DNA of 64,000 nucleotides from Kineococcus sp. NBC_00420 (GTDB lineage Bacteria > Actinomycetota > Actinomycetes > Actinomycetales > Kineococcaceae), in NCBI RefSeq assembly GCF_036021035.1, contig NZ_CP107930.1:744001-808000 (forward strand). Reading direction: 5' to 3'. A program made the translations under genes and the position numbers. Numbering within the stretch: position 1 is the first letter of the stretch; every line of letters starts with the position of its first letter. This document shows, in pieces, positions 22,044-36,578 of the stretch. The notes beneath the pieces were generated by a model, which was not told the origin of the DNA, did no database searches, and saw only the letters and a program-made list of their open reading frames with translations.

Positions 22044-22790
22044 TCACCTGGTCCGCGCGTCCACCGGCAACGGTGGGTAGAAGGTCTCCGGCAGGGCCCG
22101 CAAGGCCCGGACCATCGCGTCCGTCCCGTCGAACTGGAAACCCAGTTGCGTGGCGTACGCGGCGCACGCCTCCACCTTGGCGTCGAGTTCCTCCTCCGTG
22201 GGGTACCGGGGGTCGCCGAGGGGAGTCTCCGCTCCGGCCCGCAGGACGTAGGGGGTGTCCGCCCACCGGGCCAGAGACAGGCCCCGGTCGTGGGCGAGAA
22301 CGTCGACCGCCGTGCGCACGTGGCGGTGGTCGACGTGGTCGCCGAGAGCCTGCGGACCCAGCAGCAGGTCCACGGAACCCCCGAACCGCTCGTCGAGGAA
22401 CGCCGTGAGGGCCTCCCCGATCGCGACCGGGCACCCCTCGTCCCCGGCGACGACGGGCCCGAAGAGCGCTGCGGCGCTGTGGTACCCGCGGTGCGGCGCT
22501 TCGAGGAGGGGGAGGTGGAAACCCGTCGTGCCGAGGGCGGCGCCGGCCGCGACGTCCTCGGCGCGACGCAGGGCCATGTAGTCGACGTCGTCGGCCAGAC
22601 CCTTGTCGGTCTGGCAGGCCAACGCGAAACCCGTCGGGTCCGTCACGCTGCCGGTGAAGACGGTGAGCACCGTGACCTCGGCCCCCGCGGCCACCAACCC
22701 GGTCAACAGCGCCCCGGCGGAGAACACCGCGTCGTCCAGGTGCGGGGAGACGGCGAGGACCCGCGCGGGGTCCACCCCGGCGCGGTTCAC
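22044..22790 (-). CDS. PIG-L family N-acetylglucosaminyl deacetylase-like enzyme
   Basis: A 248-residue zinc-dependent deacetylase-like protein. The metal motif SPHLDDAVFSAGALL is near residue 13 and the second histidine cluster LGDHVDHRHV near residue 150. Known members (MshB, BshB, PIG-L) remove acetyl groups from GlcNAc-type amides. The GTG start overlaps the stop of the upstream GT4 gene by 4 bases. A GT4/PIG-L pair recalls the first steps of mycothiol synthesis (MshA/MshB). Sequence context, with YcaO and an MBL hydrolase, suggests a different product. Confidence 0.9.
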   Translation of the reverse strand: MNRAGVDPARVLAVSPHLDDAVFSAGALLTGLVAAGAEVTVLTVFTGSVTDPTGFALACQTDKGLADDVDYMALRRAEDVAAGAALGTTGFHLPLLEAPHRGYHSAAALFGPVVAGDEGCPVAIGEALTAFLDERFGGSVDLLLGPQALGDHVDHRHVRTAVDVLAHDRGLSLARWADTPYVLRAGAETPLGDPRYPTEEELDAKVEACAAYATQLGFQFDGTDAMVRALRALPETFYPPLPVDARTR

Positions 22791-24094
22791 AGGAGGTGGG
22801 GGGTGACGAGGAACCGGCAGTCGGAGTCGGCGGTCGTGGGTTCCACGCCCCGCCCCCTGCTGGTAGGGCGTTCGGCGGGCGGGACCTGCGTCCACGCGGT
22901 GTCCGGCGGCGTGGCGACGACCCGGTGGTAGACGGCTTCCACGCGTTCCGTCAGAGCCGGCCAGGACCAGACCTCGCGCACCTCGCTCAGCGCCTGCTGC
23001 GCCAGCTTCGGCCCCAGGGCCGGGTCGTCGAGCAGACGACGCAGGGCGTCGACCAGACCCGCGACGCCGCCGACCTCGTGGAGCAGACCGTTCTCGCCGT
23101 CGCGCACGCAGTCCACGACGCCCACCGTGCGGGTGGTGACGACGGGGAGCCCGGCGGCCATGGCCTCCAGGATCGTGTTCGAGAAACCCTCGGACTGGGT
23201 CGGCGAGACGAACACGTGAGCGTCGCGGTAGACGGCGGGCGCCTCGGTGTAGGGGACGTAACCCCGCTGCTCCACGACGTCGTCCAGCCCCAGTTCGGTG
23301 ACGAGTTCGGCGACCGCGGTGACGTCGGGGCCGATGCCGGAGACGAGGAGCCGCACGTCCCGGCCCTCCGCGCGCAGCGCCGCGAGACCGTGCAGCAGGT
23401 CGAGGACGCCTTTTCGACGGTCGACGCGGCCGTGGAAGAGGAGCGTCACCGGCCCGTCCGCGGGCAGCACACCCACGGCGACCTCGTCGGCGGGGGTGAA
23501 GGCCTGCGTGTCGGTGGCTCCACCGACCAGGTCGAACCGTTCCGGGTCGGTCCCGTGGTGGTCCACGACCTCGTCGGCGAACGTCCGGGAACCGATGAGG
23601 ACGGCCCCGGCGTGGTCGAGGACCGTGCGGATCCCCACGGAGTGGGCGGGACAGCACAACCCCACCCAGTGCCCGTCGCCCCCCTGGACGCTGACCACCG
23701 AGGGCAGGCCGAGCGAGGCGGACGCCTCCAGGACGGCCATCCCGGTGGGCCAGGCGTACTGGGCGTGCAGCAGGTCGAACGGTTCCTCGGCGTGCAGGCG
23801 CTCCACGGTCTCGCGCATCGCGGCGATGTCGGCGTCGAAGTCGGCGGGCAGACCCTCGCCCGACCGTTGCTCCCCCAACGCCTCCAACCCGATCGCCCGC
23901 ACCCCGGCCGGGACCCGGTCCGCGGGGGGCGGACCGCCGCCGTAGACGGCGCTGCCGGCGGGGTCACCGCGGAACTGCGACACCAGCACGACCTCGTGGC
24001 CGCGGGCCACCAGACCTTCCACGAGCTTCTCCGCGTACACGCTCATGCCCGACACGGCGGGCCAGTAGCGGCGGGAGACGAGGCAGATCCTCAT
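22787..24094 (-). CDS. GT4 family glycosyltransferase
   Basis: A 435-residue GT-B retaining glycosyltransferase. The N-terminal domain begins with ICLVSRRYWPAVSGMSVYAE. The C-terminal nucleotide-sugar domain shows LLFHGRVDRRKGVLDLLHGL and the E-x7-E region SEGFSNTILEAMAAGLPVV. A ~35-residue polar tail after residue 400 is not part of the fold. ATG 24094 overlaps the YcaO stop (ATGA), so both are made together. An MshA-like sugar transfer to a small acceptor is possible; the acceptor is unknown. Confidence 0.9.
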   Translation of the reverse strand: MRICLVSRRYWPAVSGMSVYAEKLVEGLVARGHEVVLVSQFRGDPAGSAVYGGGPPPADRVPAGVRAIGLEALGEQRSGEGLPADFDADIAAMRETVERLHAEEPFDLLHAQYAWPTGMAVLEASASLGLPSVVSVQGGDGHWVGLCCPAHSVGIRTVLDHAGAVLIGSRTFADEVVDHHGTDPERFDLVGGATDTQAFTPADEVAVGVLPADGPVTLLFHGRVDRRKGVLDLLHGLAALRAEGRDVRLLVSGIGPDVTAVAELVTELGLDDVVEQRGYVPYTEAPAVYRDAHVFVSPTQSEGFSNTILEAMAAGLPVVTTRTVGVVDCVRDGENGLLHEVGGVAGLVDALRRLLDDPALGPKLAQQALSEVREVWSWPALTERVEAVYHRVVATPPDTAWTQVPPAERPTSRGRGVEPTTADSDCRFLVTPHLL

Positions 24095-25656
24095 GCGGTC
24101 CATCCGTTCTCGCGGGCCACGGCGGCCGCGTGCAGTGCCGGTTCGCGGTAGAGCGGGTACAGCTCCCCCAGGACGCAGTCGAGCGCGGTCCGGTCCAACC
24201 AGGCCGGGCCGCCGAGGCGTTCCCGGGCGGCGTCGGTGAGGTGGACGGGTTCGGCGGAGGCGGGGACCCCGTCCTGTCCGGGCACCCCGAGGCCGGCGAT
24301 GCCGTGCAGGCCCGTCCGACCGTCCCCACGTTCGAGCAGGTCCACCAGCCCGCGTTCCCCGATCCGGCCGTAGCTGACGATCTCGACCTCGAGCCCCGGC
24401 ACGACGACCCGGGCCACGGCGACGGGTTCGGCGGAGCAGTCGAGCACCAGCACGTCGAACCCGCGCTCGCGCAGGAGACCCACGAGGTGGGCACAGAGGG
24501 CCTGCTGCTCGTCGACGCCCTCGGGGGCCCGCCACGTCGGCAGGGTGTCGAAGCGACGCCGGCTGCGTTCGGCCAGGACGACGGGTTCGAGCAGGGACCG
24601 CAGCTGAGCGGCGTCCTTCTCCAGCCAGCCGAGCATCCCGCGCAGGGCGCGCTCCTCCTGGGTGGAGGGGTCGGCGGCGTAGCGCTCGACGTACCCGGCG
24701 GGGCTGATGTCGCGGACGGCGTCGAGGTCCCCGTGGGTGAAGGCCTTGCGGGAGCGGGCCGCGGCGAACTCCAGCACGGCCTTGCGCAGCGCCACCTCCC
24801 GGTCGGGGTGGGCGGCCTCGCCGGCGGCGGTCACCATGACCGGCTGCAGCGGGTCGTCGTCGGTGCCGACGACGGTGATGTTGGCGATGCCCCACCAGTC
24901 GTTGGCCAGCTTGGGCACGACCCGCACCCCCGCCGCCCGCAACCGGGCCAGGGCGTCGCGGGTCACGGGGTCGGTCACGAGTTCGTCGTCGGGGCCGAGG
25001 TCGAGGACGACGCCGGTGTCCAGGGCCCGGAAGCGGGTCCCGTTGCCGTCGCGCTGCAGGAGTTCTCCGATCCCGTGCGCGACCGCGCGTTCGAGGCTGT
25101 CGCCGGCACCGAGGCCGTTGCCGTGCCGGGTCACCAGGCGGGGCAGGTCGTCGACGAAACCGTCGGGCAGTTCGTCGGAGTCGCGCAGCACGACGTCGGC
25201 GGGGGCCCAGACCCGCTCCCCCGTGCCGTAGCGCTGCAACGGCAGCCAGTTCAGCGTCACGTCGGGCGTGTAGGGCGCGCCGGCGTCCAGGCACACCGCC
25301 GGCGGGTCCAGGACGGCGTCGGCCCCGAGTTCGGCGACCAGCTCGTTCCGGGTGGCGCGCCGGTGCTCCAGGGTGGCCACGGTGCGGCGCAGCAGACCCA
25401 GTTCCGCGGACTCGCCCCAGCTGGAGCGCCGTGCGTCGGCGTCGGTGCCGCCGTACCCGTGGCCGATGGCGGCCACCCCGGCGTCGCCGGTCGCGGCGAT
25501 CGTCCACCACGAGGGGATGCCGACGGTGTCCAGGCGGTAGGTCGGGAACTGGAAGCGGTCGCGCTCCCCCAGTACGTCGCGGAAGCGTTCGGTCGCGAGG
25601 TGGTCCTGCCCCTCCTGGACGGGGTGGTCGACGGTCAGGCGACGGGGTGCGGTCAC
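24091..25656 (-). CDS. YcaO domain protein (ATP-dependent amide activation)
   Basis: A 521-residue protein with a YcaO core. GNGLGAGDSLERAVAHGIGE followed by LLQRDGNGTRF is the conserved ATP/Mg helix region (SxxExAxxxGxxEL..RD). VVPKLANDWWGIANITVVG and GEAAHPDREVALRKAVLEFA follow as the next conserved blocks. YcaO enzymes phosphorylate amide oxygens to make azolines, thioamides or amidines. The C-terminus (ENGWTA) lacks the PxPxP tail of azoline-forming members, and no E1-like, TfuA or precursor gene is nearby. A final domain after residue ~400 (LDCSAEPVAVARVVVPGLEV) is also YcaO-like. GTG 25656 overlaps the upstream stop by 4 bases. Confidence 0.87.
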   Translation of the reverse strand: MTAPRRLTVDHPVQEGQDHLATERFRDVLGERDRFQFPTYRLDTVGIPSWWTIAATGDAGVAAIGHGYGGTDADARRSSWGESAELGLLRRTVATLEHRRATRNELVAELGADAVLDPPAVCLDAGAPYTPDVTLNWLPLQRYGTGERVWAPADVVLRDSDELPDGFVDDLPRLVTRHGNGLGAGDSLERAVAHGIGELLQRDGNGTRFRALDTGVVLDLGPDDELVTDPVTRDALARLRAAGVRVVPKLANDWWGIANITVVGTDDDPLQPVMVTAAGEAAHPDREVALRKAVLEFAAARSRKAFTHGDLDAVRDISPAGYVERYAADPSTQEERALRGMLGWLEKDAAQLRSLLEPVVLAERSRRRFDTLPTWRAPEGVDEQQALCAHLVGLLRERGFDVLVLDCSAEPVAVARVVVPGLEVEIVSYGRIGERGLVDLLERGDGRTGLHGIAGLGVPGQDGVPASAEPVHLTDAARERLGGPAWLDRTALDCVLGELYPLYREPALHAAAVARENGWTA

Positions 25657-26588
25657 GCGAAGACCTCCACGGTCCGGGTCAGCAGGTCCATCGGCACCGG
25701 GGACGCCGACGGGGGGTTGGCGAGCATGTGGTCGACGAGGGCCACGACGTGGGCCGTGGTGACCCCGCGGGCGAACTCGAAGGGGCTGAAGACGGTGTCG
25801 AACTCCAGCTGCCCGACGATCTCGCGCATGCTGCGCAACTCGGCCCGGGACAGCGGGATCTGCGCGTGGAACGCCTTGTGGGCGCTCAGCGCCGCGGCGT
25901 TCCCGTCCTCGTCGAGGTCGATCTTGAGGGAGTCGCCGCAGAAGAACAGGCCGCGATCGGCGTCGTGCAGGACGCTGTGCCCGGGGAAGTGCCCGCCGGT
26001 GCGGTGCAGGGTGATCCCGGGCGCCAGCTCGGTCCGGTCGTCGGCCGGCCAGGTCACGCGGAAGGCCTTGGTCCAGGTGAGGTCGTGGACGCCGACGGAG
26101 ACGACGGGCGGGTCGAGTTCGTCCTGCAGCTGCCACAGCCCGCCGAAACCGTGGACGTGGCTGGAGGCCAGGACCCGCAGGCCACCGCGGCGGCGCAGTT
26201 CGGCCAGCGCGTCGGCGGAGTACCACGGGGCGGCCTCGAAGCCGAGCAGGCCGTCGGAGGTCTCCAGCACCCAGCCGTGCGACCCGAGCCCCACGACGGG
26301 GTCGCACCAGAACTCGGTGACCCCGGGTACGGCCTCGCGCCAGGACGTCGTCACGAGCGCGTCGACCTCGGTCTCGCGCAGGAACTCGAACCCGTCGACG
26401 GGCAGTTCGTTGCGGACGTCGGAACACACCGGGCACGACGGCGGCGGGGTGTGCGCGAACCAGCGCTGCCAGTGGCCGCAGTTCGTGCAGGAGTAGGCGC
26501 GGTGCTCGCGGTGGGCCCGGGTGGGCAGGGGCGCCAGTTCCGCGGCGCGGACCCCGCGCATCGCGTGGGCGTCGTCGGGTCCGGTCAT
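25653..26588 (-). CDS. MBL-fold metallo-hydrolase with N-terminal zinc ribbon
   Basis: A 311-residue protein. Residues ~30-60 form a rubredoxin-like zinc ribbon (YSCTNCGHWQRW then SCPVCSDV). A metallo-beta-lactamase fold follows, with SSHVHGFGGLW in place of the usual HxHxDH, then GGHFPGHSVL and FFCGDSLKID. The first metal motif keeps only part of its ligands, so metal binding may be altered or limited to one site. ATG 26588 overlaps the oxidoreductase stop (ATGA). In the cluster it could hydrolyse or transfer a thioester or amide. This is inference. Confidence 0.85.
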   Translation of the reverse strand: MTGPDDAHAMRGVRAAELAPLPTRAHREHRAYSCTNCGHWQRWFAHTPPPSCPVCSDVRNELPVDGFEFLRETEVDALVTTSWREAVPGVTEFWCDPVVGLGSHGWVLETSDGLLGFEAAPWYSADALAELRRRGGLRVLASSHVHGFGGLWQLQDELDPPVVSVGVHDLTWTKAFRVTWPADDRTELAPGITLHRTGGHFPGHSVLHDADRGLFFCGDSLKIDLDEDGNAAALSAHKAFHAQIPLSRAELRSMREIVGQLEFDTVFSPFEFARGVTTAHVVALVDHMLANPPSASPVPMDLLTRTVEVFA

Positions 26589-27646
26589 GCTCGTGCCTCC
26601 ACGGGTCGGGGCTGCGCGCCCAGGGCGTCGTGCAGCAGGTTCAGCAGGCGCAGGTCCCGCGACATCGGGAATCGCCAGTCCTCCCCGCCGGTGACCGCGG
26701 CCTCCAGGGCCCGCAGTTCGCCGGTGAACGGTGACGTGGTGGTGTCGAACTCCAGGTCGCGGGACGCACCCGTGGCGGCGTCGATGAACTCCACGCGGCC
26801 ACCGGCGTCCTGTCCCATGGTGTCGTTGGCGACGAGCTGCCCTGCGGTACCGACGATCTCGAGCCGACGGCGCGGCAGGGTCTCGACGGTGTTGAACGAG
26901 TTCGAGATCGTCACCAGCACCCCGGAGGAGGTGCTGCCGACAAGGACGGAACCGTCGTCGACGGCGTAGTCGTGGACGCGGTGCTGCACGTGGGTGGTGG
27001 CCGTGGCCACGTCCTCGCCCAGCAGGGTGCCGACGAGGTCCAGCCCGTGCGGGGCGAGGTCGATGTAGGCCCCGCCACCGGCCCGGACGGGGTCGACGCG
27101 CCAGTTGTCACCCGTGGTGCTGCCGGGCGGTGCCCACCCGGGCGGCAACCAGCACGCGTAGACGATGCGGACGGCCGTGACGGTGCCCAGGTCGCCCCGG
27201 GCGATGAACTCGGCCATCACCTCGTGGGCGGGGTGGAACCGCTGGTCGAAGGCCGTCGCGGCCACCACTCCCGCGCGTTCGCACCCGGCGACCAGCGCCG
27301 CGGCGTCCTCCAGGCTCGCCGCGAGCGGCTTCTCGCACAGGACGGCCAACCCCGCGTCGGCCGCGGCCAGCGCGACCTCGCGGTGGGCGTGGTTCGGGGT
27401 GGCGACGTAGACGATCCGCGCCCCCGGGGTGGCGAAGGCCGCGGCCAGGTCGTCGTGCGCCTGCGCGCCCGGGAAGCGGGCCGCGAGGGCGATCGCCGCC
27501 TCCAGGTCACGGTCGACGACGGCGACGACCCGGCTGGTGGCCGAGGCGGCCAGGGCGGGGGCCATGTGGTCGCGGGCGACCCAGCCCGCTCCGGCGATGA
27601 CCCAGCCGGTCCGCTCGTCGTCGTGCAGTTCGTCAGGGGTGTTCAC
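26585..27646 (-). CDS. Gfo/Idh/MocA family NAD(P)-dependent oxidoreductase
   Basis: A 353-residue dehydrogenase of sugars, inositols or related polyols. The Rossmann motif IAGAGWVARDHMAPAL opens the protein. CEKPLAASL is the family EKP motif, and GGGAYIDLAPHGLDLVGTLL supplies the typical active-site His. GTG 27646 follows GAGGAG at a short 4-base spacing. It is the second gene of the six-gene minus-strand operon and is followed by a 4-bp overlap with the MBL gene. Substrate is unknown; the partner TIM-barrel isomerase suggests a sugar or inositol route. Confidence 0.92.
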   Translation of the reverse strand: MNTPDELHDDERTGWVIAGAGWVARDHMAPALAASATSRVVAVVDRDLEAAIALAARFPGAQAHDDLAAAFATPGARIVYVATPNHAHREVALAAADAGLAVLCEKPLAASLEDAAALVAGCERAGVVAATAFDQRFHPAHEVMAEFIARGDLGTVTAVRIVYACWLPPGWAPPGSTTGDNWRVDPVRAGGGAYIDLAPHGLDLVGTLLGEDVATATTHVQHRVHDYAVDDGSVLVGSTSSGVLVTISNSFNTVETLPRRRLEIVGTAGQLVANDTMGQDAGGRVEFIDAATGASRDLEFDTTTSPFTGELRALEAAVTGGEDWRFPMSRDLRLLNLLHDALGAQPRPVEARA

Positions 27647-27670
27647 GGGACTCCTCGGTGGACGGGGTGC

Positions 27671-28660
27671 TCAGCGCACCGGGATGCCGGCGCCCGCGAG
27701 GACACCGAGCTGGAACTGCTGGACGGCGCCGGGGTGGACGATGTCCAGGTCGTCGAGGGCCTGGGCGGCGGTGAACGCCGCCTCACGGGCGTGGTGGTGG
27801 ACCTGCAGCACGCGGTCCAGGACGTCAGCGGTGTTGAAGACCCGCCCCACGGGGGTGTCGGTGGTCTCGCGCTGCGGCAGGAGGACCCGCAGGCGCTCCG
27901 CGAGGCCCTGCGGCAGTTGCTGCAGGGACCGCTGCTCCAGGGCCGCCAGCACGCGCAGGTAGTGCTCCCCGAGCAGGACCTCGCCGCCGAACCCGGCGTC
28001 GGGGAGGTCGCCGTTGGGCAGGTGGTGGGCCAGCGCGACGAGGAACGCCTCGCCGCGCCCCACGCCGAAGCGCGGTGCGACGAGCGCGGAGTACACCGCG
28101 GTGACGAAGCAGTGGTCACCGTGGCTCTCGGGGGGTTCCACGACGACGCGCGGCAGCACCGGGTGGGTGGCCCCGGCTCGCGGCTGCCGGACCAGGGCGT
28201 CGACGAAGGCCGGTGCGGCAGGGAGGAGCTCCTCCGCGAACGGGTCGGGGTCCAGCGCGGCGCGCAGGTCGGCGAGGTCACCGAAACCGCCCTCGGCGGT
28301 CGCCGTGACGGCGTCGAAGGCGCGCTGCAGCACGAGCAGACGTTCGTCCCGGTCCAGACCGGCCGTGGCCAGGACGTCGGCGTCGACCCCGGCGAGACGG
28401 GCCGCGACCAGGGCGTGGGCCACCTCCCGCAGGGCCAGGGCCAGGACGTGGTCCACCGACCATTCCTGCAGGAGAACGCGCCAGGACCGGACGAACGCGC
28501 GGTCGGCGAGGGAACCCGGTCCTCGGGCGTCGCGCAGGCGCTTCACGTCCGCCACCTCCCGCAGGAGCTGCAACGTGGAGGGTTCCACCACCGGAGCTGC
28601 GGGGGAACCGGAGTTCGCGGGGTCGGGCCCTGCGACGGAGACGGGTCGAGGGGAGGTCAT
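27671..28660 (-). CDS. Uncharacterised HD-domain-like protein
   Basis: A 329-residue cytoplasmic protein without a family I can name. The pattern ESHGDHCFVTAVYSAL, then LVALAHHLPNGDLPDAGFGG, then GEHYLRVL and NTADVLDRVLQVHHH resembles an HD-type metal site (spread His/Asp ligands on helices, with HH..D in place of HD). The N-terminal 30 residues are polar. HD-fold enzymes include phosphohydrolases and mixed-valent di-iron oxygenases such as PhnZ and myo-inositol oxygenase. ATG 28660 has AGGAG 13 bases upstream, which is long. It is first in the operon, 24 bases before the oxidoreductase. Confidence 0.6.
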   Translation of the reverse strand: MTSPRPVSVAGPDPANSGSPAAPVVEPSTLQLLREVADVKRLRDARGPGSLADRAFVRSWRVLLQEWSVDHVLALALREVAHALVAARLAGVDADVLATAGLDRDERLLVLQRAFDAVTATAEGGFGDLADLRAALDPDPFAEELLPAAPAFVDALVRQPRAGATHPVLPRVVVEPPESHGDHCFVTAVYSALVAPRFGVGRGEAFLVALAHHLPNGDLPDAGFGGEVLLGEHYLRVLAALEQRSLQQLPQGLAERLRVLLPQRETTDTPVGRVFNTADVLDRVLQVHHHAREAAFTAAQALDDLDIVHPGAVQQFQLGVLAGAGIPVR

Positions 28661-28747
28661 CGGCGGGTTCGAGCTCCTGCGCTCGGCACGGTGAACGGCA
28701 CGGCGTCACTGTGCCCCGCTCCCCGGGAGTCCGCACACCGGACTTCC

Positions 28748-28763
28748 CGTGACGATTCTCACG
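28748..28763. promoter_or_regulatory. Possible operator between divergent cluster genes
   Basis: CGTGA and TCACG flank a 6-base centre (CGATTC) in the 230-bp region between the divergent HD-like and TIM-barrel genes. Short inverted repeats like this are seen for dimeric regulators, but no regulator gene is adjacent. Weak evidence. Confidence 0.25.
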
Positions 28764-28890
28764 TCCTGTGACTCCGGAAGCGCACCCGGTCAGATCGTGC
28801 GTATCGTCGTCGGGCGCAGCACCGAGACCGCTGCCAGGCTGATCCGACTCTTCCCCTCCACCGCGACTCACGCGACCACGAGGAGCACCT

Positions 28891-29844
28891 GTGCCCGAAA
28901 CCCCCCTGACCCCCTCGACCCCGCGCGCCCGTCTCGCCTACAACGCGAACGGTCTGCGCTCGGTGAGCCTCGACGACGCCGTCCGGACGCTGGCCGACCG
29001 CGGGTACGACGGCATCGAACTCTCGCTCAACGCCCAGCACATCGACCCGTGGACGTTCTCCGCCGCCGACGCGGCCCGCCTGCGGGAAACCCTCGCGGCG
29101 AACGGCATGGTCGCGTGCAGCCTGGCCACCGGGGACCCGCACCTGCTGAGCGAGGAGGCCTTCGAACCCGCGCTCGTGGACCCGGACCCCGCCGAACGCG
29201 CCCGCCGGCTGGACCTGTTGCAGCGCAGCGTCCGCATCGGGGTTCTCGTCGGAGTTCCGCTCGTGGTGTTCTCCACCGGCAAGCGGCGTCCCGAGGTCGG
29301 TGCGGCCCAGGCCGACGCGTGGCTGGACGAGGCCCTGGCCGTCCTGCTCGACACGCTGCACGAAACCCTCGACGCAGCAGGACTTCCCCGCGGCAGCACG
29401 GTCCTGGGCATCGAGCCCGAACCAGGGTTCCACTGCCGGACGAACGCCGACGTCGCGGTCGTGCTGGAACGGACGGCGAGCCCGGACCTGTGGCTCAGCC
29501 AGGACCTCGGACACTGCGTCGTGGAGGAGGAGGACGCCTTGGGTTCACTCTCCCGCCACCTCCCGATCACCCGCCACCTGCAGGTGGAGGACATCGCCGA
29601 CCGCGTGCACGCGCACCTCGTTCCCGGAGACGGGGACGTCGACTTCGACGCCGTGGGCCGGGTTCTGGCCGACGGGTACGAGGGCTGGATCAGCGTGGAA
29701 CTCTACGACCACGATCCGGTGCACCGCGACGCCGCACAGCGCAGCGAGGAGTTCCTCCGCGAGCGCTTCCCGTCCCTGGCGCGGCCGTCCCGGTCGATCG
29801 ACCTGTCCTCCCTCGAGACCAGGAGCACCGCCTCGGCTCACTGA
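28891..29844 (+). CDS. Sugar phosphate isomerase/epimerase-like TIM barrel
   Basis: A 317-residue AP-endonuclease-2-type TIM barrel. Features are RLAYNANGLRSVSLDDAV at the first strand, GYDGIELSLNAQH, EPEPGFHCRTNADV (metal Glu), QDLGHCVVEEED (Asp/His) and DVDFDAVGRVLADGYEGWIS near the end. Such proteins isomerise or epimerise sugars and inositol intermediates with a divalent metal. GTG 28891 has GAGGAG five bases upstream. It is divergent from the YcaO operon and its end overlaps the convergent agmatine-deiminase gene by 7 bases. Confidence 0.87.
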   Translation: MPETPLTPSTPRARLAYNANGLRSVSLDDAVRTLADRGYDGIELSLNAQHIDPWTFSAADAARLRETLAANGMVACSLATGDPHLLSEEAFEPALVDPDPAERARRLDLLQRSVRIGVLVGVPLVVFSTGKRRPEVGAAQADAWLDEALAVLLDTLHETLDAAGLPRGSTVLGIEPEPGFHCRTNADVAVVLERTASPDLWLSQDLGHCVVEEEDALGSLSRHLPITRHLQVEDIADRVHAHLVPGDGDVDFDAVGRVLADGYEGWISVELYDHDPVHRDAAQRSEEFLRERFPSLARPSRSIDLSSLETRSTASAH

Positions 29845-30878
29845 ACCGGTCCGGCCGTCGCGGGTTGCTGCTGGGTGATGCAGTGGACGCCGCCGCCGCG
29901 TTCGAACAGGGGACGGGCGTCGACGGTGACGACGGTGCGGCCCGGGTAGGCCTCGCTCAGGATCGAGCGGGCGCGGGCGTCGGCCTCGGGTTCACCGAAA
30001 CCGCAGGCCACCACCCCGCCGTTGACGACGAGGTGGTTGACGTAGCTCCAGTCGACGGGGCCCGTACCGTCGCGCAGCGTCGCCGGGGCGGGTAGGTCGG
30101 TGAGGGTGACCGCGCGGCCCGTGCTCTCGAAGGCCGCCTGCAGTTCCGCCCGGCACTGGCGCGACACCGCGGCGTCGGGGTGTCCCTCGTCCCGCTGGTG
30201 GTGGACCAGGACGTGGTCGGGCGCGGCGAAGGTGGCGACGATGTCGACGTGGCCCCGGGTACCCAGTTCGTCGTAGTCGCGCGTGAGACCGCGGGAGAGC
30301 CAGACGGCCTGCGTCGCGCCGATGGTGCGCGCCATCTCGGCCTCGACCCGCCTCCGGTCTGCGAACGGGTTGCGCCGGGGGTCGAGCTGCACGGTCTCGG
30401 TCAGCAGCACCGTGCCGGTGCCGTCGACGTGCAGGCCGCCCCCCTCGGCGACCAGCAGGGAGTCGACGACCTCGGCGCCGACGTGCTCGGCGACGATCCG
30501 GGCGATGCCCGCGGACTTCTGCCACTCCGCCCAGTCCGGGGCCCCCCACCCGTTGAAGATCCAGTCGACCGCCCCGAGGACTCCGGAACGGTCGCGGTCC
30601 AGCACGAAGGTCGGGCCCACGTCGCGCATCCAGAACTCGTCGAGGGGGGCTTCGACGATCTCCACGGCCGGGTCGAGCATCCGCCGGGCCCGGGCGGTCT
30701 CGGTCGGGTCGACCACCATCGTCACGGGTTCGAACTGCGCCACCGCGTGGGCGACGTCGGTCCAGGCCCGGTACCCCTCCTCCCGGGTCTGCGCCCCGGC
30801 GCCGAGGGTGAACCCCTCACGGGGGAACGCCATCCAGGTGCGCTCGTGCGGATCGGTCTCAGCGGGCATCTGCCACAC
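29838..30878 (-). CDS. Agmatine deiminase family protein
   Basis: A 346-residue guanidino-group-modifying enzyme. Agmatine deiminase makes N-carbamoylputrescine and ammonia. Visible family motifs are DEFWMRDVGPTFV, VAEGGGLHVDGTGT, RGHVDIVATFA and the C-terminal catalytic cysteine motif GGGVHCITQQQP. I chose GTG 30878 (VWQMPAETDPHERTW) because AGGAG precedes it by five bases. A longer frame starts at 30905. It lies 33 bases after the fused aminotransferase gene, so is probably co-transcribed in a polyamine or amide catabolic set. Confidence 0.92.
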   Translation of the reverse strand: MWQMPAETDPHERTWMAFPREGFTLGAGAQTREEGYRAWTDVAHAVAQFEPVTMVVDPTETARARRMLDPAVEIVEAPLDEFWMRDVGPTFVLDRDRSGVLGAVDWIFNGWGAPDWAEWQKSAGIARIVAEHVGAEVVDSLLVAEGGGLHVDGTGTVLLTETVQLDPRRNPFADRRRVEAEMARTIGATQAVWLSRGLTRDYDELGTRGHVDIVATFAAPDHVLVHHQRDEGHPDAAVSRQCRAELQAAFESTGRAVTLTDLPAPATLRDGTGPVDWSYVNHLVVNGGVVACGFGEPEADARARSILSEAYPGRTVVTVDARPLFERGGGVHCITQQQPATAGPVQ

Positions 30879-30911
30879 GACAGCTCCTCTCGGTTCGGGG
30901 AACACCGGCGT

Positions 30912-33794
30912 TCACCAGCCGGTCCTCAAGACGTGTCCCAGCGCGTCGGCGAACACGTCGACCGACGCCCGTGAGACACACAGGGGTGGTTTGACCTTGA
31001 GGACGTTGAGGTGGTCGCCGGTGGGCTGCATGACGACCCCGAGTTCCAGCAGGCGGTCGCAGATCGCGGCCGTCTCCTCGGTGGCGGGTTCGAGGGTGGT
31101 GCGGTCCCGCACGAACTCGACGCCGAGGTAGAGGCCGGAACCGTGCACGGTGCCGACGAGGTCGTGCTCGCGGCCGAGGTCCTCCAGGCGCCGCTTCAGG
31201 TGCGCGCCCACCACGCGGGCGTTGTCCTGCAGGCGTTCCGACCGGATCACCTCGAGCACGGCCGAGCCGACCACCGCCGAGACGGGCGACCCGCCGGTGG
31301 AGGAGAAGAAGTACCCCTGCGTGCGGTAGCGGTCGGCGATCTCCCGTCGGGTGATCACCGCCCCGAGCGGGTGGCCGGCACCGATGGACTTCGCCACCGC
31401 CACCATGTCGGGCACGACACCCTGCTGCTGGAAACCCCAGAACCACTCCCCCAGGCGTCCGAAACCCACCTGCACCTCGTCGGCGATGGCGAGACCACCG
31501 TGGCGGCGCACCGCGGCGTAGACCTGCTCCAGGTACCCCTCGGGGAGGGCGACCCCGCCCGCGTTGCCGAAGTACGGCTCGCAGATCAGCCCCGCCGGCG
31601 GACGTCCACCGGCCGCGAGCCCGTCGATGACGGCCACGGCCTCCGGGGCGTAGCGCCAGGCGTCCGCGCCCCGGTGACGCCCGCGGTAGGAGTTCGCGGC
31701 GTCGACGGTGTGCACCCACGCGGGGCGCGAGGAGAGGGCGTTCGGGTTGTCGGCGATCGACGTCGACACCGCGTCGCTGGCGTAGGTCCAGCCGTGGTAC
31801 GCCTCGCGCATCGCGACGACGTCGGGGCGCCCGGTGGACGCCATCGCGAGCCGGACGGCCAGGTCGGTGGCCTCGGAGCCGGAGTTCACGAAGAACACCG
31901 TGTCGAGCCCCTCGGGCAGCGTCGCGGACAACTGCTCGGCGTAGTCGGTGATGGCCCGGTAGTGGAACCGTGAGTTCGTGTTCAGCAACTGCATCTGACG
32001 GGACGCCGCGGCGATGACGCGGGGGTGCGCGTGACCCACCGACGCGACGTTGTTCACCATGTCGAGGTGGACGCGGCCGTCGACGTCGAGGAGGAACTCG
32101 CGCCAGCCGCGTTCGACCTGCGGGGGCGCCGCGTAGTAGTGCTCCTGGACCTCGGCGAGCACGCGGTGCCGGCGCCGCAGGACGTCGTCCCCGGTTCCTT
32201 CGCGCTCCCCCTCGGAGGGGACGCCGATCGCCGCCCCGGGATCACCGACCACCGCCCGCCACGCGCGTGCGAGCCGCGGTGTCACCCGGGCCGGTGGCTG
32301 ATCCTGCCCTGCGGCGCAACGCTGCACGAGGAGTCGGGTGCGGGCGGGGAGCACCCCTGACCCGTCGTTCCCGAGTTCTCTGGTGACGATGACGGTCCCT
32401 CCCGTCGACGTCCAGCGGAGCGACTGCGCGGTCTGGCTGACCTCACCGGAACCCACACCGAGGGGACTCGGACGGGCCAGCCACACGGTGACGCCGGTGG
32501 ACACCGTCTCGGCCGTCGCCGCCGGCGGTGGCAGGGAACCGGTGACGACCGGTCGCCAGGCGGGCACGGTGACGATCTCGGCGCCGGCGTCGAGGGCCGC
32601 CAGGGCGGCGTTCTCGAGGGTCGACGCGTCGAGCCAGGCCCCGGCGTCGTTCAGCGGCGACTCCGTCGACGCGTCGAGTTCGACCCGACGCGCGAGAGGG
32701 GGCAGGAGGGTGTCCCCCACCCACGCCGGTTCCGGCGCCACCGGTCGTCCGAGCGCCGCGCGGGTCGCGGCGGTGAGGACGGCGAGCGGTACCGACGTGG
32801 CCCGTTCCAGGATGCGGAACTCGCGGTCGAGGGCGCCGGAGGCGTAGGAGTTCTGCTCGTCCACGCGCACCTGGGCCCGGCCGCTGAGGACCAGCACCGC
32901 ACCGCGCAGGACCACCAGCGGCCACAGGGCGGTGATCTCGTCATCGTCCAGCGGACGGTCGCGGTCGAAGGCGCGGACGGCGGTCAGCGCGCTCTCGGGC
33001 GTGGCGCCGTCGTGGTGCAGGATCGAGGACACCGTCACCGCGATCTCACCCACCCGCCACGACGCGCACACGTCGCCGAAGTCGATCACGGCGTCGGGGA
33101 CGACCCCGCCCTCGGGCCGCAGCACGTTGTCGTCGGTGACGTCGAAGTGCCCGGCCTGCACCGGGAGTCCCGCGGCCACCGGGGCCAGCGCGTTGCGCGC
33201 CGCCACGGCGGCCGCCCCCACGACGGCACGCACCGCAGCGTCCGGTTCGAGCGGGAGAAGGGTGTCGACGACCCGGTCCGCGTGGCGCAGGTTCCACTGC
33301 AACACCCGGGTCTGCGCCGGGTGGGTGAAGTCGGACAGGGCGGTGCTGACGGCGGCGGCGAGTCGCCCCATCGCCTCGACGACCGGCGGGGACAGGTACC
33401 TCGAGCCCGTGAGGGTCCGCCCGGAGACGTTCTCGATGACCCGCGCGTGCAGACGTCCGCCCGTCGTGTCCCACCACGCCGACATCACCCCGCGAGGACC
33501 GTCGACGAGGCGCGGCACGCGCAGGCCGGGGTGACGGTGCGCGACGACGGCGGCGGCCTCGTCCTGCATCTCGATCTCGGACTCGCTGAACACCGGGTTG
33601 CTGAGCTTGAGGACCCCCAGCGGCTCGCTCGAACCCCGGGGGAACAGCCGGAAGTTCTGGTCCTGCTGGCTCCCGAGGGACCGCACGTCGACCTCGACGC
33701 CGAACACCTCGGCGACGTGGCGGCGCACCTCGTCGTCGGTGAGCGTCAGAGTGGGCAGGTCGACCTGGGCGAAGTAGTCGAAGACCTCGGACAC
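30912..33794 (-). CDS. Fused APH-type kinase / class III aminotransferase (phospholyase-like)
   Basis: A 960-residue fusion. Residues ~25-330 are an aminoglycoside-phosphotransferase-fold kinase: QDQNFRLF and GVLKLSN for ATP, QAGHFDVTDDNVL as catalytic loop and VIDFGDV as the metal Asp. A ~170-residue middle segment is not recognised. Residues ~520-955 are a class III PLP aminotransferase: VFFVNSGSEATDLAVRLA, ADEVQVGFGR and AKSIGAGHPLGAVI with the PLP lysine near residue 800. This recalls the hydroxylysine kinase/phospholyase pair. GTG 33794 has GAGGGAG five bases upstream; an earlier GTG at 33836 overlaps the amidase stop but has no ribosome site. Confidence 0.88.
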   Translation of the reverse strand: MSEVFDYFAQVDLPTLTLTDDEVRRHVAEVFGVEVDVRSLGSQQDQNFRLFPRGSSEPLGVLKLSNPVFSESEIEMQDEAAAVVAHRHPGLRVPRLVDGPRGVMSAWWDTTGGRLHARVIENVSGRTLTGSRYLSPPVVEAMGRLAAAVSTALSDFTHPAQTRVLQWNLRHADRVVDTLLPLEPDAAVRAVVGAAAVAARNALAPVAAGLPVQAGHFDVTDDNVLRPEGGVVPDAVIDFGDVCASWRVGEIAVTVSSILHHDGATPESALTAVRAFDRDRPLDDDEITALWPLVVLRGAVLVLSGRAQVRVDEQNSYASGALDREFRILERATSVPLAVLTAATRAALGRPVAPEPAWVGDTLLPPLARRVELDASTESPLNDAGAWLDASTLENAALAALDAGAEIVTVPAWRPVVTGSLPPPAATAETVSTGVTVWLARPSPLGVGSGEVSQTAQSLRWTSTGGTVIVTRELGNDGSGVLPARTRLLVQRCAAGQDQPPARVTPRLARAWRAVVGDPGAAIGVPSEGEREGTGDDVLRRRHRVLAEVQEHYYAAPPQVERGWREFLLDVDGRVHLDMVNNVASVGHAHPRVIAAASRQMQLLNTNSRFHYRAITDYAEQLSATLPEGLDTVFFVNSGSEATDLAVRLAMASTGRPDVVAMREAYHGWTYASDAVSTSIADNPNALSSRPAWVHTVDAANSYRGRHRGADAWRYAPEAVAVIDGLAAGGRPPAGLICEPYFGNAGGVALPEGYLEQVYAAVRRHGGLAIADEVQVGFGRLGEWFWGFQQQGVVPDMVAVAKSIGAGHPLGAVITRREIADRYRTQGYFFSSTGGSPVSAVVGSAVLEVIRSERLQDNARVVGAHLKRRLEDLGREHDLVGTVHGSGLYLGVEFVRDRTTLEPATEETAAICDRLLELGVVMQPTGDHLNVLKVKPPLCVSRASVDVFADALGHVLRTGW

Positions 33795-33832
33795 GGCGTC
33801 TCCCTCGGGGGCGGGACGGGACGGGTGGGCGT

Positions 33833-35848
33833 TCACAGCGGTGACTGCGGCGTCGTCGCGACGGCACCGGCGACCACACCCGACCCGTCGCGCACGAGGA
33901 CGACGACGAGGGGCCCGAAGGGGGCGAGCCAGTCGCTGACGGGCGCGCGGTGGGCTCCGGCGTCGACCTGCGCTGTGCCCTGCAGGCGACCTCGCTCCGA
34001 CGTCGTGGCGACGCGCACCCCGTCGACGAAGGCCGCGTGCTCGAAGCTCTCCCCGCCGACCACGGTCGCGCAGAAGCGCACGACTCCGTCGGTGTCGAGG
34101 CGCACCTCGTCCACGGTGACGGCGAGCTCCCCCGTCGCAACGGGGCGGGCGACCGCGAACACCGCCTCGTCCGGCAGTTCCGGGGTGCGCGACGGGATCG
34201 TCCGGCGCTCGCGCAGGGCGGTGACGGCCGCGGCCACCTGCACCAGCCGGGTGTCGCCGTAGGCGGGGCCGGCGATGGTGAGGCCGACGGGCATCCCCGT
34301 GTCGGCCATCGTGCCCATCGGCACGGTGACCGTCGGGATGCCGAGGTGACGGGGCACGAGGTTGCCGTTGGAGACCCACACGCCGTTGCTCCAGGCGAGG
34401 TCGGCCGACGCGGGGTTCACGTCGGCGTCGGCGGGCCCGACGTCGGCGGCCGCCGGGAAGACCACCACGTCGAAACCCTCGGCGGTGAGCCAGTCCTCGA
34501 AGTCGACGCGCCGGGTGTGCTCCAGCCCGCGCAACCCCTCCTCGAGGCTCTCGATGGTGCGCCAGTCGCACTCCCCCTGCCGGGCGCGGTCGACGTAGCC
34601 GGAGATGTCGTAGGCGAGGTCGAAGTCGAAGACGCCGTAGCGGTCCTCCAGCGCGCCGGGCGGCGCCGGGAAGATGCGCGCGGGATCGACGTCGGCGAGC
34701 CGGTTCAGGGTCGGATCGTCGTTGCGGCGCAGGAAGTCGTCCATGGCCCAGACCGAGAGGTCGCCGATCTCGTCGCGCAGGAACTGCCGGCTGACGAAAC
34801 CCCGGTCGACGAAGTCGCGGTCCCCGACGTGGAGCTTCTCGTAGTTGTCCACGACCGGGAAGGGGGTTTCGACCACCTCCGCGCCGGCGGCCTCGAGGTC
34901 CGTCCGCAGGTCCGCCCACAACCGCATCACGCTGTCGCGGGTGCGGATCGGGTGCCTGGTGTCCGGGTCGGCGTTGACGTAGAGGCGCGGAACGGCCAGG
35001 CGCAGGCCGGCCAGCGGCAGGTCCTCGAGGTCGGCGAACGACGGCGGGCGCACCTGCGAGGGGCGGGGCAGGTCGATCCACGGCTGGGTGCGCCACAGGT
35101 CCCCGGAGGGGTCGGGGTCGTCGGCGACCACCACGTCGAGCACGTGCTGCAGGTCGCGCACCGACCGCGTGTGCGGCACGACGACGTCCATCGTGGGGAC
35201 CAACGGCCAGTTGCCGCGCACCGAGACGACCCCGCGCGAGGGGGTGTAGGCGACGAGGGCGTTGTTGGAGGCCGGCGCCCGTCCGGACGACCAGGTCTCC
35301 TCCCCCAGACCGAAGGCGGCGAAGCTCGCCGCCGTCGCCGTGCCGGAGCCGTTGGAGGATCCGGAACCGAAAGCGGAGGTCAGGTGGTCGGCGCTGTAGG
35401 GCGACTCGGCCCGTCCGTAGACGCCCCGCTGCATCCCGCCGGCCGCCATCGGCGGCATGTTCGTGAGGCCGAGGAACACCGCCCCCGCGGCCCGCAACCG
35501 CGCGACGGCGAAGGCGTCGTCGCGGGCGACCAGGCCGGCGAAGGCGGGAGAACCACTGGCGACGGGCAACCCCTTCACCTGGTAGGAGTCCTTGGCGGTG
35601 AAGGGGATCCCGTCGAGGAGACCGAGTTCCCGACCGCGCGCGCGGCGCTCGTCGGCGGCCCGCGCCTCGTCGAAGACCGCGGGGTTGAGCACCGGGACGG
35701 AGTTCAACCGGGGACCGGAACGGTCGTGGTGGCCGATGCGGTTCAGGTAGCGGGCCACCAGTTCGACGCTGCTGAGGGTGCCCGCGGCGAGGGCCTCGCG
35801 CAGCTGCTCGACGCTCGCCTCGACGACGGTGAAGGGCCTCGTGTCCAC
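33833..35848 (-). CDS. Amidase-signature family protein with extra C-terminal domain
   Basis: A 671-residue amidase. Catalytic elements of the Ser-cisSer-Lys triad are PFTAKDSYQVKG (Lys), SAFGSGSSNGSGTATAAS and GEETWSSGRAPASNN (Ser nucleophile region), as in an actinobacterial amidase subgroup. After about residue 580 comes a ~90-residue beta-like extension (VRFCATVVGGESFEHAAFVD) not found in core amidases. I chose GTG 35848: it is preceded by TATGTT and seven bases, a leaderless arrangement. ATG 35860 is in frame but has no ribosome site. The TetR gene is divergent and an operator covers the -10 box. It probably releases amino compounds for the neighbouring enzymes. Confidence 0.88.
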   Translation of the reverse strand: MDTRPFTVVEASVEQLREALAAGTLSSVELVARYLNRIGHHDRSGPRLNSVPVLNPAVFDEARAADERRARGRELGLLDGIPFTAKDSYQVKGLPVASGSPAFAGLVARDDAFAVARLRAAGAVFLGLTNMPPMAAGGMQRGVYGRAESPYSADHLTSAFGSGSSNGSGTATAASFAAFGLGEETWSSGRAPASNNALVAYTPSRGVVSVRGNWPLVPTMDVVVPHTRSVRDLQHVLDVVVADDPDPSGDLWRTQPWIDLPRPSQVRPPSFADLEDLPLAGLRLAVPRLYVNADPDTRHPIRTRDSVMRLWADLRTDLEAAGAEVVETPFPVVDNYEKLHVGDRDFVDRGFVSRQFLRDEIGDLSVWAMDDFLRRNDDPTLNRLADVDPARIFPAPPGALEDRYGVFDFDLAYDISGYVDRARQGECDWRTIESLEEGLRGLEHTRRVDFEDWLTAEGFDVVVFPAAADVGPADADVNPASADLAWSNGVWVSNGNLVPRHLGIPTVTVPMGTMADTGMPVGLTIAGPAYGDTRLVQVAAAVTALRERRTIPSRTPELPDEAVFAVARPVATGELAVTVDEVRLDTDGVVRFCATVVGGESFEHAAFVDGVRVATTSERGRLQGTAQVDAGAHRAPVSDWLAPFGPLVVVLVRDGSGVVAGAVATTPQSPL

Positions 35849-35861
35849 GGCGGGAAACATA
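35849..35861 (-). promoter_or_regulatory. Leaderless -10 element of the amidase gene
   Basis: On the minus strand TATGTT (35861-35856) is followed by seven bases and GTG 35848. This TANNNT-N7-GTG spacing is typical of leaderless actinobacterial transcripts. Confidence 0.5.
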
Positions 35862-35873
35862 CATCGTTTGTTT
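35855..35873. promoter_or_regulatory. TetR operator between amidase and regulator genes
   Basis: AAACATAC-ATC-GTTTGTTT is an inverted repeat with 7 of 8 arm positions matching, strikingly AT-rich for this genome. It overlaps the amidase -10 box and lies 67 bases before the TetR gene. I infer that the divergent TetR protein represses the amidase here. Confidence 0.65.
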
Positions 35874-35939
35874 TCCGACGGCCAGGGTTCCGAGCAGCCT
35901 GACGGCCGGTGACGCGTAGGCTCGGCGCGTTCCCAGGAG

Positions 35940-36578
35940 GTGCCCATCGCCAGACCGACGCGTCCACTGCTCAACCGTGAACTGATCACCCGGACGGCGC
36001 TGGCCCTGATCGACAGCCAGGGCCCCGAGGCCGCCAGCATCCGCGGGGTCGCCGCCCGTCTGGCCGTCAACCCCGCGTCGCTCTACAACCACGTGCCCAA
36101 CCGCGCCGCCATGATCGAGGACGTGCGGGCCCTGGTCTCCGCGCGGATCGACTCGGGACCGCTGCGGTCCCTGCCCTGGGAGGACGGCCTGCGCGCGTGG
36201 GCCCGCTCCTACCGCAGCGCCTTCGCGCGCCACCCCCGGGCGATACCGCTGCTCATGACGGAGCGCGCCTCGGCACCCGTCCTGCTGGCCCAGTACGAGG
36301 ACTTCGCGGTGGCCGCCGCAACCGTCGGCTGGCCCGAGCGCGACGTGCTCCCCCTGCTGACGGCGTTCGAGTCCTTCGTCCTCGGCAGCGTCCTCGACAT
36401 GTCCGGGCCGAGCGTCGTCTTCGACCCCACCGGCCAGGAGGACGCCTTCCCCACCTTCGCCGCGGCGTTCGCGACCCTGGCCGACGAGGACCCGCACGAC
36501 CCGGTGGCGACGCGGGCCTTCGAGATGGGTCTGGAGATGCTCCTCGCCTCGGCCCGTCCCGGCGGGGCGACCGCCTGA
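35940..36578 (+). CDS. TetR family transcriptional repressor
   Basis: A ~212-residue regulator. The N-terminal helix-turn-helix is IRGVAARLAVNPASLYNHVP, followed by an all-helical ligand domain. The start is odd: GTG 35940 uses the last base of AGGAGG (35935-35940), which would leave no spacing. ATC at 35946, five bases after AGGAGG and about 17 bases after the expected transcript start from TAGGCT (35917-35922), fits better. No other ATG/GTG/TTG start is suitable. It is divergent from the amidase, with an operator between. The ligand is probably an amide or amine of the neighbouring pathway (inference). Confidence 0.87.
   Translation: MPIARPTRPLLNRELITRTALALIDSQGPEAASIRGVAARLAVNPASLYNHVPNRAAMIEDVRALVSARIDSGPLRSLPWEDGLRAWARSYRSAFARHPRAIPLLMTERASAPVLLAQYEDFAVAAATVGWPERDVLPLLTAFESFVLGSVLDMSGPSVVFDPTGQEDAFPTFAAAFATLADEDPHDPVATRAFEMGLEMLLASARPGGATA

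Follow-up and report, generated by a model that had tools for sequence, protein, structure and literature searches.

A set of seven neighboring genes in Kineococcus sp. NBC_00420, built around a YcaO-domain enzyme, is, with a probability of roughly 0.55, a version of a widespread and undescribed non-ribosomal pathway for an inositol- or amino-sugar-containing molecule, with the YcaO enzyme acting on the product molecule itself. The gene set and its order are conserved, and genes that have split off from the block are retained in the genome in most of the tested cases; every substrate, product, and chemical step of the pathway, in turn, we infer. More tentatively, at somewhat under even odds, the system would be the first to direct a YcaO enzyme, with a remodeled active site, at a sugar or cyclitol small molecule, not at a peptide, yielding a product common to several phyla; some non-producing bacteria would keep just the YcaO enzyme along with an importer and a deacetylase, and with these import the molecule made by others and finish or use it. 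If true, this would extend the YcaO family to small-molecule chemistry, a new use beyond peptides, and the conserved nine-gene pathway would point to a metabolite common to bacteria of several phyla. To our knowledge, the known YcaO reactions all modify peptides or proteins.

Organization of the Kineococcus Locus

The window, meaning the whole 64,000-nt stretch of DNA that was analyzed, covers positions 744,001–808,000 of contig NZ_CP107930.1 (assembly GCF_036021035.1). A sequence-only reading had described six minus-strand genes and a divergent TIM-barrel gene with four successive 4-bp overlaps, and both the open reading frames (ORFs) and the junctions were confirmed. The minus strand encodes a 248-aa PIG-L family de-N-acylase (22044..22790; Pfam PF02585, 45.1 bits), a 435-aa GT4 glycosyltransferase (22787..24094; PF13692, 118.6 bits) placed in a cluster-specific subfamily by an alignment of 15 sequences, the 521-aa YcaO-domain enzyme (24091..25656; PF02624, 159.7 bits), a 311-aa zinc-ribbon metallo-β-lactamase (MBL)-fold protein (25653..26588; PF00753, Lactamase_B, 25.2 bits), a 353-aa Gfo/Idh/MocA oxidoreductase (26585..27646; PF01408, 86.0 bits), and a 329-aa HD-fold protein whose C-terminal half is phosphohydrolase-like (27671..28660; PF13023, HD_3, 26.4 bits). 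On the plus strand lies the gene for a 317-aa TIM-barrel sugar isomerase/epimerase (28891..29844; PF01261, AP_endonuc_2, 103.6 bits), and the intergenic region delimited by the HD and TIM coordinates (28661..28890), whose sequence was read, is the presumed site of divergent promoters.

Overlaps of 4 bp (GTGA or ATGA) join PIG-L to GT4, GT4 to YcaO, YcaO to MBL, and MBL to Gfo/Idh, and a 24-bp gap separates Gfo/Idh from HD. All seven assignments lie above the Pfam gathering score, with the MBL and HD proteins alone near their cut-offs (22.7 bits for Lactamase_B and 22.5 bits for HD_3). The cluster has a GC content of 0.735, against 0.721 for the window. Conclusions are based on tblastn and Pfam, the home-made ORF caller being biased toward high third-position GC and making some wrong-strand calls.

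Conservation of the Gene Block Across Phyla

Relatives of the YcaO enzyme occupy the same gene block across five phyla, the fifth represented by a single plasmid. The full set in other bacteria comprises genes for myo-inositol-phosphate synthase, the HD protein, a methyltransferase, the Gfo/Idh oxidoreductase, the MBL protein, YcaO, the TIM barrel, GT4, and PIG-L. The eight genes other than that for the MBL protein are present in 47 of the 62 loci with sufficient flanking sequence, and 18 of those 47 carry the MBL gene as well. Gene order is kept between phyla, and identity to the window proteins is mostly 37–68%, with the TIM barrel lower, at 32–38%. The proposal that the genes form one unit is thus borne out far beyond the actinobacteria, and the genome-neighborhood comparison that had been suggested as a check found the block staying together. 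The same comparison refutes the reading that the Kineococcus genes are unrelated chance neighbors, to which we attach hardly any credence, although two of the nine genes were not found in the Kineococcus cluster and its TIM gene is diverged in sequence.

In all four Methylobacterium genomes examined for it, the MBL gene missing from the block was found elsewhere in the genome. Beside this unlinked gene, a glutathione-transferase-like ORF, recognized by eye, was the sole recurrent neighbor (three of four loci by the ORF caller, which overlooked the MBL ORF itself at one locus). Short clusters in Actinomycetospora might suggest that the sugar part is dispensable; this was rejected because TIM, GT4, and PIG-L are grouped elsewhere in four of the five short-form genomes; in three of the four, they share a contig with the short cluster at a distance of about 19 kb. 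GT4 was not found in one of the five, a 4.7-Mb metagenome-assembled genome (MAG). An overlooked small gene in the gap between Gfo/Idh and YcaO of MBL-less clusters was also considered, and three-frame translations of seven loci (five from Methylobacterium and two from Acetobacteraceae/Rhodospirillales MAGs), compared by eye, revealed no shared ORF.

The HD gene occurs in 7 of 396 genomes of the phylum, as scored from the top candidates per genome, and all seven, six of them from one family, fall within the ten genomes that have a cluster-type YcaO. Pairwise protein distances of YcaO correlate with those of Gfo/Idh (0.82), GT4 (0.83), HD (0.81), and MBL (0.80), these being raw correlations that include species descent. 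Correlations of the TIM barrel with the other cluster proteins are lower, at 0.35–0.60, or 0.48–0.74 once the Kineococcus row is removed. The window TIM protein is 31–35% identical to 13 non-Kineococcus copies, with 45 alignment columns invariant in all 15 aligned copies, and a Kineococcus copy has a mean identity of 34% to the others against 62% among those others; it is a much diverged form of the TIM gene found in other clusters.

The Inositol Phosphate Synthase and the Incomplete Kineococcus Set

In most of the relatives examined, a myo-inositol-phosphate synthase gene stands first in the cluster. At 54 of the 58 loci counted, this gene is part of the block or close to YcaO, at one of them (L058) some 7–8 kb away. 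All five cluster synthases scanned score above the PF07994 and PF01658 cut-offs (197–225 bits for PF07994), and the cluster synthase is closest to that of Bacteroides (7nwr, 401 bits). The presence of this synthase at the head of the cluster makes an inositol intermediate likely. A sugar or inositol intermediate had been suggested from the isomerase and oxidoreductase, and the synthase supports its inositol side, whereas the Gfo/Idh protein falls below the cut-off for inositol 2-dehydrogenase IolG (TIGR04380; 99.2 vs. 355 bits).

In Kineococcus the cluster is incomplete. The synthase gene is absent from it, a PF07994 search of the genome returned no match, and the methyltransferase was not found in the genome with one relative's protein as the query and no positive control, so that two steps are missing or borrowed there. 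Elsewhere, the genome contains an Ino1 match (TIGR03450), and a match to MshA above the TIGR03449 cut-off occurs outside the cluster in all 11 Kineococcus genomes.

Enzymes of the Proposed Sugar and Cyclitol Part

The residues of the SPHLDD and HxDH motifs of PIG-L are invariant in 14 of 14 aligned cluster members, and the alignment of 15 GT4 proteins shows an invariant GGDGHWVGxCCxxH motif together with a C-terminal C-R...H-L-L tail. GT4 and PIG-L had been likened to MshA and MshB, an identity that did not hold: GT4 is far below the NCBIfam cut-off for MshA (TIGR03449; 99.7 vs. 462.5 bits), and true MshA and Ino1 matches lie elsewhere in the genome. As GT4 is not MshA, it is conjecture that its acceptor is inositol.

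The nearest PDB match of the Gfo/Idh protein by sequence profile is 1,5-anhydro-D-fructose reductase (2glx, 199 bits), to which it is nearer than to inositol dehydrogenases, and its EKP and D-x3-H residues are invariant in 14 of 14 sequences. The MBL protein retains four N-terminal zinc-ribbon cysteines in 14 of 14 members. The metal motif of MBL hydrolases is HxHxDH; all 14 members have HxHx[FY]G instead, and the loss of the D-H half makes the hydrolase label given to this protein doubtful. In HD phosphohydrolases, metal is bound through an H...HD...D motif, and the HD pair is replaced by HH in 22 of 22 cluster proteins (H212-H213 in Kineococcus), with the other positions aligned to the ligands of HDDC2 and 2cqz retained. 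A fold search with the predicted HD structure ranked HDDC2-like phosphohydrolases first, at weak E-values (best 0.014), which leaves a reading of the HD protein as an oxygenase of the myo-inositol oxygenase kind unsupported.

A Distinct Clade of YcaO Enzymes

The window YcaO is the sole PF02624 match in the Kineococcus genome and belongs to the family both by its score (cut-off, 25.7 bits) and by the YcaO fold of its predicted structure (pLDDT 93.4), which matches Methanocaldococcus jannaschii YcaO (6peu) at an E-value of 7.3e-18; it narrowly misses the NCBIfam YcaO domain model TIGR00702 (75.1 vs. 75.65 bits). It lies below the curated cut-offs for RiPP azoline-forming YcaO (TIGR03604; 58.5 vs. 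219.25 bits), McrA-thioamidating YcaO (TIGR03266; 73.8 vs. 365 bits), and ribosomal S12 YcaO (NF040716; 22.5 vs. 700 bits), and in a tree the cluster YcaO enzymes form a clade separate from the 21 other YcaO proteins compared. Placement in a known RiPP or ribosomal-protein-modifying clade, which would have told against the sequence-only reading, was thus not found. The nearest solved YcaO by both sequence profile and fold is the McrA-thioamidating enzyme of methanogens (MJ1094; 6peu/6pe3), from which the cluster enzyme differs in its score, its motif, and its sugar-type gene context.

The canonical ExxER glutamate is part of the ATP/Mg site, as established with E. coli YcaO. The second glutamate of the motif is glutamine in 33 of 33 clade members (Q201 in Kineococcus) and is retained in E. 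coli and in all 20 other actinobacterial YcaO proteins compared; an additional glutamate, E280, is invariant in the clade. Given this exchange, ATP-dependent amide activation is itself an assumption for these enzymes.

Proposed Pathway and Alternative Explanations

In the proposed pathway, inositol phosphate would be supplied by the cluster synthase in most species and by housekeeping Ino1 in Kineococcus, and its phosphate would be removed by the HD protein. Oxidation and isomerization of the cyclitol or a sugar may then fall to the Gfo/Idh protein and the TIM barrel, after which GT4 would add an N-acylated hexosamine and PIG-L would free its amine. YcaO, with ATP and the zinc-ribbon MBL protein as a putative partner, would activate an amide-type carbonyl of the resulting molecule so that sulfide or an amine replaces the oxygen, giving a thioamide, amidine, or azoline, and in most lineages a methylation would follow.

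Where the genome for the most part lacks the pathway, YcaO relatives often adjoin a polysaccharide deacetylase and an ABC importer of the sugar type. The importer points to a small sugar-like substrate, and the solute-binding protein of such loci, for example that of Microvirga arabica (locus L124, 14880..16214, minus strand), offers ready bait for the metabolite. This arrangement, and the lack of the HD gene in 12 of the 14 tested genomes with a clade YcaO outside the cluster, would also suit salvage or breakdown, with YcaO opening an amide at the expense of ATP and the genes remodeling or degrading an N-acylated inositol or sugar conjugate; the PDB title of one solved YcaO, 7u58, gives it an ATP-dependent peptidase activity. 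Most clusters counted, however, include a synthase and a glycosyltransferase, which speak for building rather than degrading, and no importer is present in the retrieved stretch of any of the 13 cluster loci examined, making salvage unlikely. The possibility that the genes make a low-molecular-weight thiol cofactor, with a GlcN-inositol backbone from GT4 and PIG-L and sulfur introduced by YcaO and MBL, is prompted by mycothiol, whose pathway runs through Ino1, MshA, MshB, and later steps and thus shares an inositol phosphate synthase, a GT4 enzyme, and a PIG-L deacetylase with the cluster. The synthase, GT4, the phosphohydrolase-like protein, and PIG-L match the first mycothiol steps in kind, but the cluster adds YcaO, MBL, Gfo/Idh, TIM-barrel, and methyltransferase genes, and Pfam and NCBIfam scans of its proteins detected neither MshC nor MshD, that is, no cysteine ligase or acetyltransferase. 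Bacillithiol synthesis likewise pairs a GT4 enzyme (BshA) with a PIG-L-type deacetylase (BshB), and the cluster GT4 falls below the BshA cut-off as well (86.6 vs. 273.7 bits). The occurrence of the cluster in bacteria that are not known for mycothiol speaks for a thiol of its own, but Kineococcus already possesses MshA and Ino1, and such a thiol is distinctly unlikely.

The same enzyme pair, accompanied by the synthase, recalls the first GPI-anchor steps, for which PIG-A and PIG-L provide the precedent of a GT4 enzyme followed by a deacetylase. An inositol glycolipid head group is nevertheless improbable, as no lipid-acting enzyme is found among the nine conserved genes, and we know of no place for YcaO in GPI-type glycolipid synthesis. 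Very improbable is a RiPP cluster with an overlooked precursor peptide. RiPPs are the best-known setting of YcaO enzymes, and the streptamidine-type and other stand-alone actinobacterial YcaO clusters resemble the present one in their stand-alone YcaO but have a conserved precursor peptide (PMC8442711). At 22 loci, a comparison of 810 short ORFs gave no conserved precursor and no family beyond three chance-like pairs, each spanning two genera, although very short or fast-changing precursors would escape it. The conserved genes, moreover, include no E1-like or TfuA partner by Pfam, and the YcaO clade stands apart.

Relation to Published Work

The non-ribosomal pathway preferred here was not found described in the open-licence full-text literature, as judged by titles and the starts of abstracts. 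No open-licence full text mentioned YcaO and PIG-L jointly, the papers combining YcaO and inositol did not concern the cluster, and those on Kineococcus radiation and copper contained no relevant passage on YcaO, DUF181, LmbE, or mycothiol. A 2021 study of stand-alone actinobacterial YcaO proteins states that evidence for modifications outside RiPPs is lacking in Actinobacteria (PMC8442711).

A parallel is offered by the ebo cluster, which combines a cyclitol-type cyclase with a TIM barrel and is not known to contain YcaO, GT4, or PIG-L. Found in algal plastids as well as in bacteria, it is conserved and cryptic and has been ascribed to a novel secondary metabolite (PMC5133447).

Conservation of the Gene Cluster

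The genes surrounding the YcaO enzyme are strongly indicated to constitute a conserved functional unit. Open reading frames and Pfam matches bear out all seven genes that the sequence-only reading had placed at 22044-29844, six of which follow one another on the minus strand in the order HD-fold protein (HD), Gfo/Idh/MocA oxidoreductase (GFO), zinc-ribbon MBL-fold protein (MBL), YcaO, GT4 glycosyltransferase and PIG-L, with the TIM-barrel sugar isomerase/epimerase gene (TIM) divergent and upstream of the run. The four successive 4-bp overlaps it had reported are found at the last four junctions of this run, and the 5.43 Mb, single-contig genome contains one PF02624 match. The neighborhood comparison that the same reading had proposed shows that the genes stay together both in and beyond actinobacteria. 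Within Kineococcus, a window-type YcaO (73-100% identity) occurs in eight of 11 genomes, the window's included, and the remaining three encode only a relative of 45-46% identity. GFO, MBL, YcaO, GT4 and PIG-L are found together in all eight genomes having the window-type enzyme, accompanied by HD and TIM wherever the contig extends far enough (two of the eight end early).

A YcaO profile scan of genome contigs, which is not a census, returned at least 387 relatives, and among the best 80 of these at least 387, which were kept, 73 lie within the cluster as judged by their neighbors and seven, labeled by hand, lie outside it. The 73 cluster loci among these best 80 belong to Actinomycetota (27), Pseudomonadota (40), Myxococcota (5) and Chloroflexota (1); a Roseomonas plasmid carries a complete nine-gene cluster, and a plasmid of Hymenobacter volaticus (Bacteroidota) carries one more cluster, which lacks the methyltransferase. 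At least 6 kb upstream and at least 5 kb downstream of YcaO were present in 62 of the 80 loci, of which four YcaO-only loci were set aside and 58 counted. The counts, which take in single stray or distant matches of three loci with no cluster around YcaO (L058, L077 and L121), are 54/58 for myo-inositol-phosphate synthase, 55/58 for HD, 53/58 for the methyltransferase, 56/58 for GFO, 26/58 for MBL, 50/58 for TIM, 51/58 for GT4 and 50/58 for PIG-L. All eight genes other than MBL are present in 47 of the 58 loci, 18 of which contain MBL as well; five loci hold synthase-HD-methyltransferase-GFO-MBL-YcaO alone, and three (L048, L067 and L114) are partial clusters.

Several clusters show local peculiarities. 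In Rubrobacter marinus (locus L060, 7964-8940) the Gfo/Idh gene is split into two adjoining parts that differ in reading frame, and the annotation of the H. volaticus plasmid gives it as two CDS (L180, 6072-7120). The YcaO gene is present in two to three tandem copies in some Myxococcaceae clusters (L091, L099 and L102), and after the nine-gene cluster on the Roseomonas plasmid (L181, 12116-15787) come mdoH and two genes of the spore photoproduct lyase family.

Split Blocks and Co-occurrence

In Methylobacterium the MBL gene is not in the block and is located elsewhere in all four genomes searched; at three of these four loci (L135-L138) it adjoins what appears by eye to be a glutathione-transferase-like ORF. 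Five Actinomycetospora genomes are without TIM-GT4-PIG-L in the block, and in four of them the trio lies together elsewhere, ∼19 kb off on the same contig in three and on another contig in one. The HD gene was detected in seven of 396 genomes of the phylum, six of them from one family, and all seven are among the 10 YcaO-positive genomes of an equal-sized, apparently identical draw, the top three (YcaO) or six (HD) candidates per genome having been scored. Pairwise protein distances, uncorrected for species descent, correlate between families with r of 0.66-0.83 in 14 of the 15 pairs without TIM and 0.60 for PIG-L and MBL; for TIM against the other families r is 0.35-0.60, or 0.48-0.74 without the Kineococcus row. 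The Kineococcus TIM copy has a mean identity of 34% to the others, compared with 62% among those others, and the TIM alignment retains 45 invariant columns, including EPEPG, DxGH, E233 and HxH.

The YcaO Family and Its Partner Enzymes

The 33 sequences of the window YcaO family fall on one side of a branch that has E. coli YcaO and 20 further YcaOs from actinobacteria on the other (SH-aLRT 99, length 1.46, in a quick tree in which the long branch of the E. coli protein makes its own placement uncertain). The predicted structure (pLDDT 93.4) best matches M. jannaschii YcaO. In all 33 family members an ExxQRD motif has Gln for the Glu of ExxER, which is Glu in 21/21 others, and GEA (E280) is found in 33/33 of the family and 0/21 of the others. 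The replaced Glu is a metal/ATP ligand, and its change to Gln suggests altered YcaO chemistry, although it does not indicate of what kind.

A comparison of the 810 short ORFs that lie within or near 22 clusters, which could miss very short or fast-changing precursors, revealed no conserved precursor peptide, with cross-genus likeness in three pairs only, of two genera each. By Pfam, none of the nine conserved families is a TfuA or E1-like one. The unit is likely to be non-ribosomal and concerned with an inositol or sugar small molecule. Biosynthesis is preferred over breakdown of such a molecule because the block includes the synthase and a glycosyltransferase; the order of the steps and the YcaO reaction are what we infer. 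According to PMC8442711, evidence for non-RiPP roles of YcaO in Actinobacteria is lacking, and PMC5589413 describes the archaeal thioamidation precedent. No prior description of the cluster was found in full-text searches of an open-licence library, and subscription papers could still hold one.

GFO retains EKP and D-x3-H and is nearest to 1,5-anhydrofructose reductase, scoring under the inositol-dehydrogenase cut-off, and the HD protein resembles HDDC2-type phosphohydrolases, with HH instead of HD. MBL retains H144, H146, H200 and D219; in all 14 aligned sequences its HxHxDH motif reads HxHx[FY]G and its four-Cys ribbon is invariant.

Assignment of GT4 as MshA was rejected (99.7 bits against a cut-off of 462.5). 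An MshA match of 628.9 bits lies elsewhere in the genome, and in an alignment with it the GT4 region corresponding to that of the MshA acceptor-binding residues is largely replaced. GT4 (22787-24094) carries a GGDGHWVGxCCxxH motif and a C-terminal tail, C-R...H-L-L, both invariant in 15/15 sequences, and a stop codon immediately follows the tail in the window and in all seven other comparable ORFs. Motif and tail, unusual among GT4 enzymes to our knowledge, could possibly form a metal or partner site.

Synthase and Methyltransferase

In most relatives, myo-inositol-phosphate synthase is the first gene of the block and the methyltransferase gene sits between HD and GFO. All five cluster synthases scanned scored above both Pfam cut-offs, and the best PDB match is Bacteroides 7nwr (401 bits). 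No synthase match was seen in the eight Kineococcus loci, two of which end early, and a PF07994 search of the window genome returned no synthase. The housekeeping mycothiol Ino1, present in 11/11 Kineococcus genomes, may substitute for it. The methyltransferase occurs in two of seven assessable Kineococcus clusters (L031 and L032) and was not found in the window genome by a search using one relative's protein and no positive control.

YcaO Outside the Cluster

YcaOs of the same family are found without the surrounding cluster at 17 loci (L040-L046, L058, L077, L086, L096, L121, L123, L124 and L189-L191), and the seven taken into the tree occupy more than one place on it. Two sugar-type ABC permeases adjoin YcaO at 12 of the 17, joined by a solute-binding protein at 10 of these 12, and a polysaccharide-deacetylase match lies no more than ∼4 kb away at 12 of the 17, the one at L043 being weak (29% identity). 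Among representatives, Pfam confirmed two solute-binding proteins, three permeases and three deacetylases, and gave no hit for one further ORF in this context (L046). No importer is present in the retrieved stretch of any of 13 cluster loci examined. The HD gene was not found in 12 of 14 non-cluster-YcaO genomes searched, with both positive controls detected, and is present in the other two (L058 and L077). These observations would be consistent with non-producing bacteria importing a small sugar-like molecule.

Flanking Genes in the Window

An agmatine deiminase-like gene (29838-30905, minus strand; TIGR03380, 244.9 bits, under the cut-off of 381.8) is convergent with TIM, the ends of the two genes overlapping by 7 bp. 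It is adjoined by an ORF (30912-36497, minus strand) whose translation, judged by eye, contains terminal kinase-like and then class-III aminotransferase-like domains.
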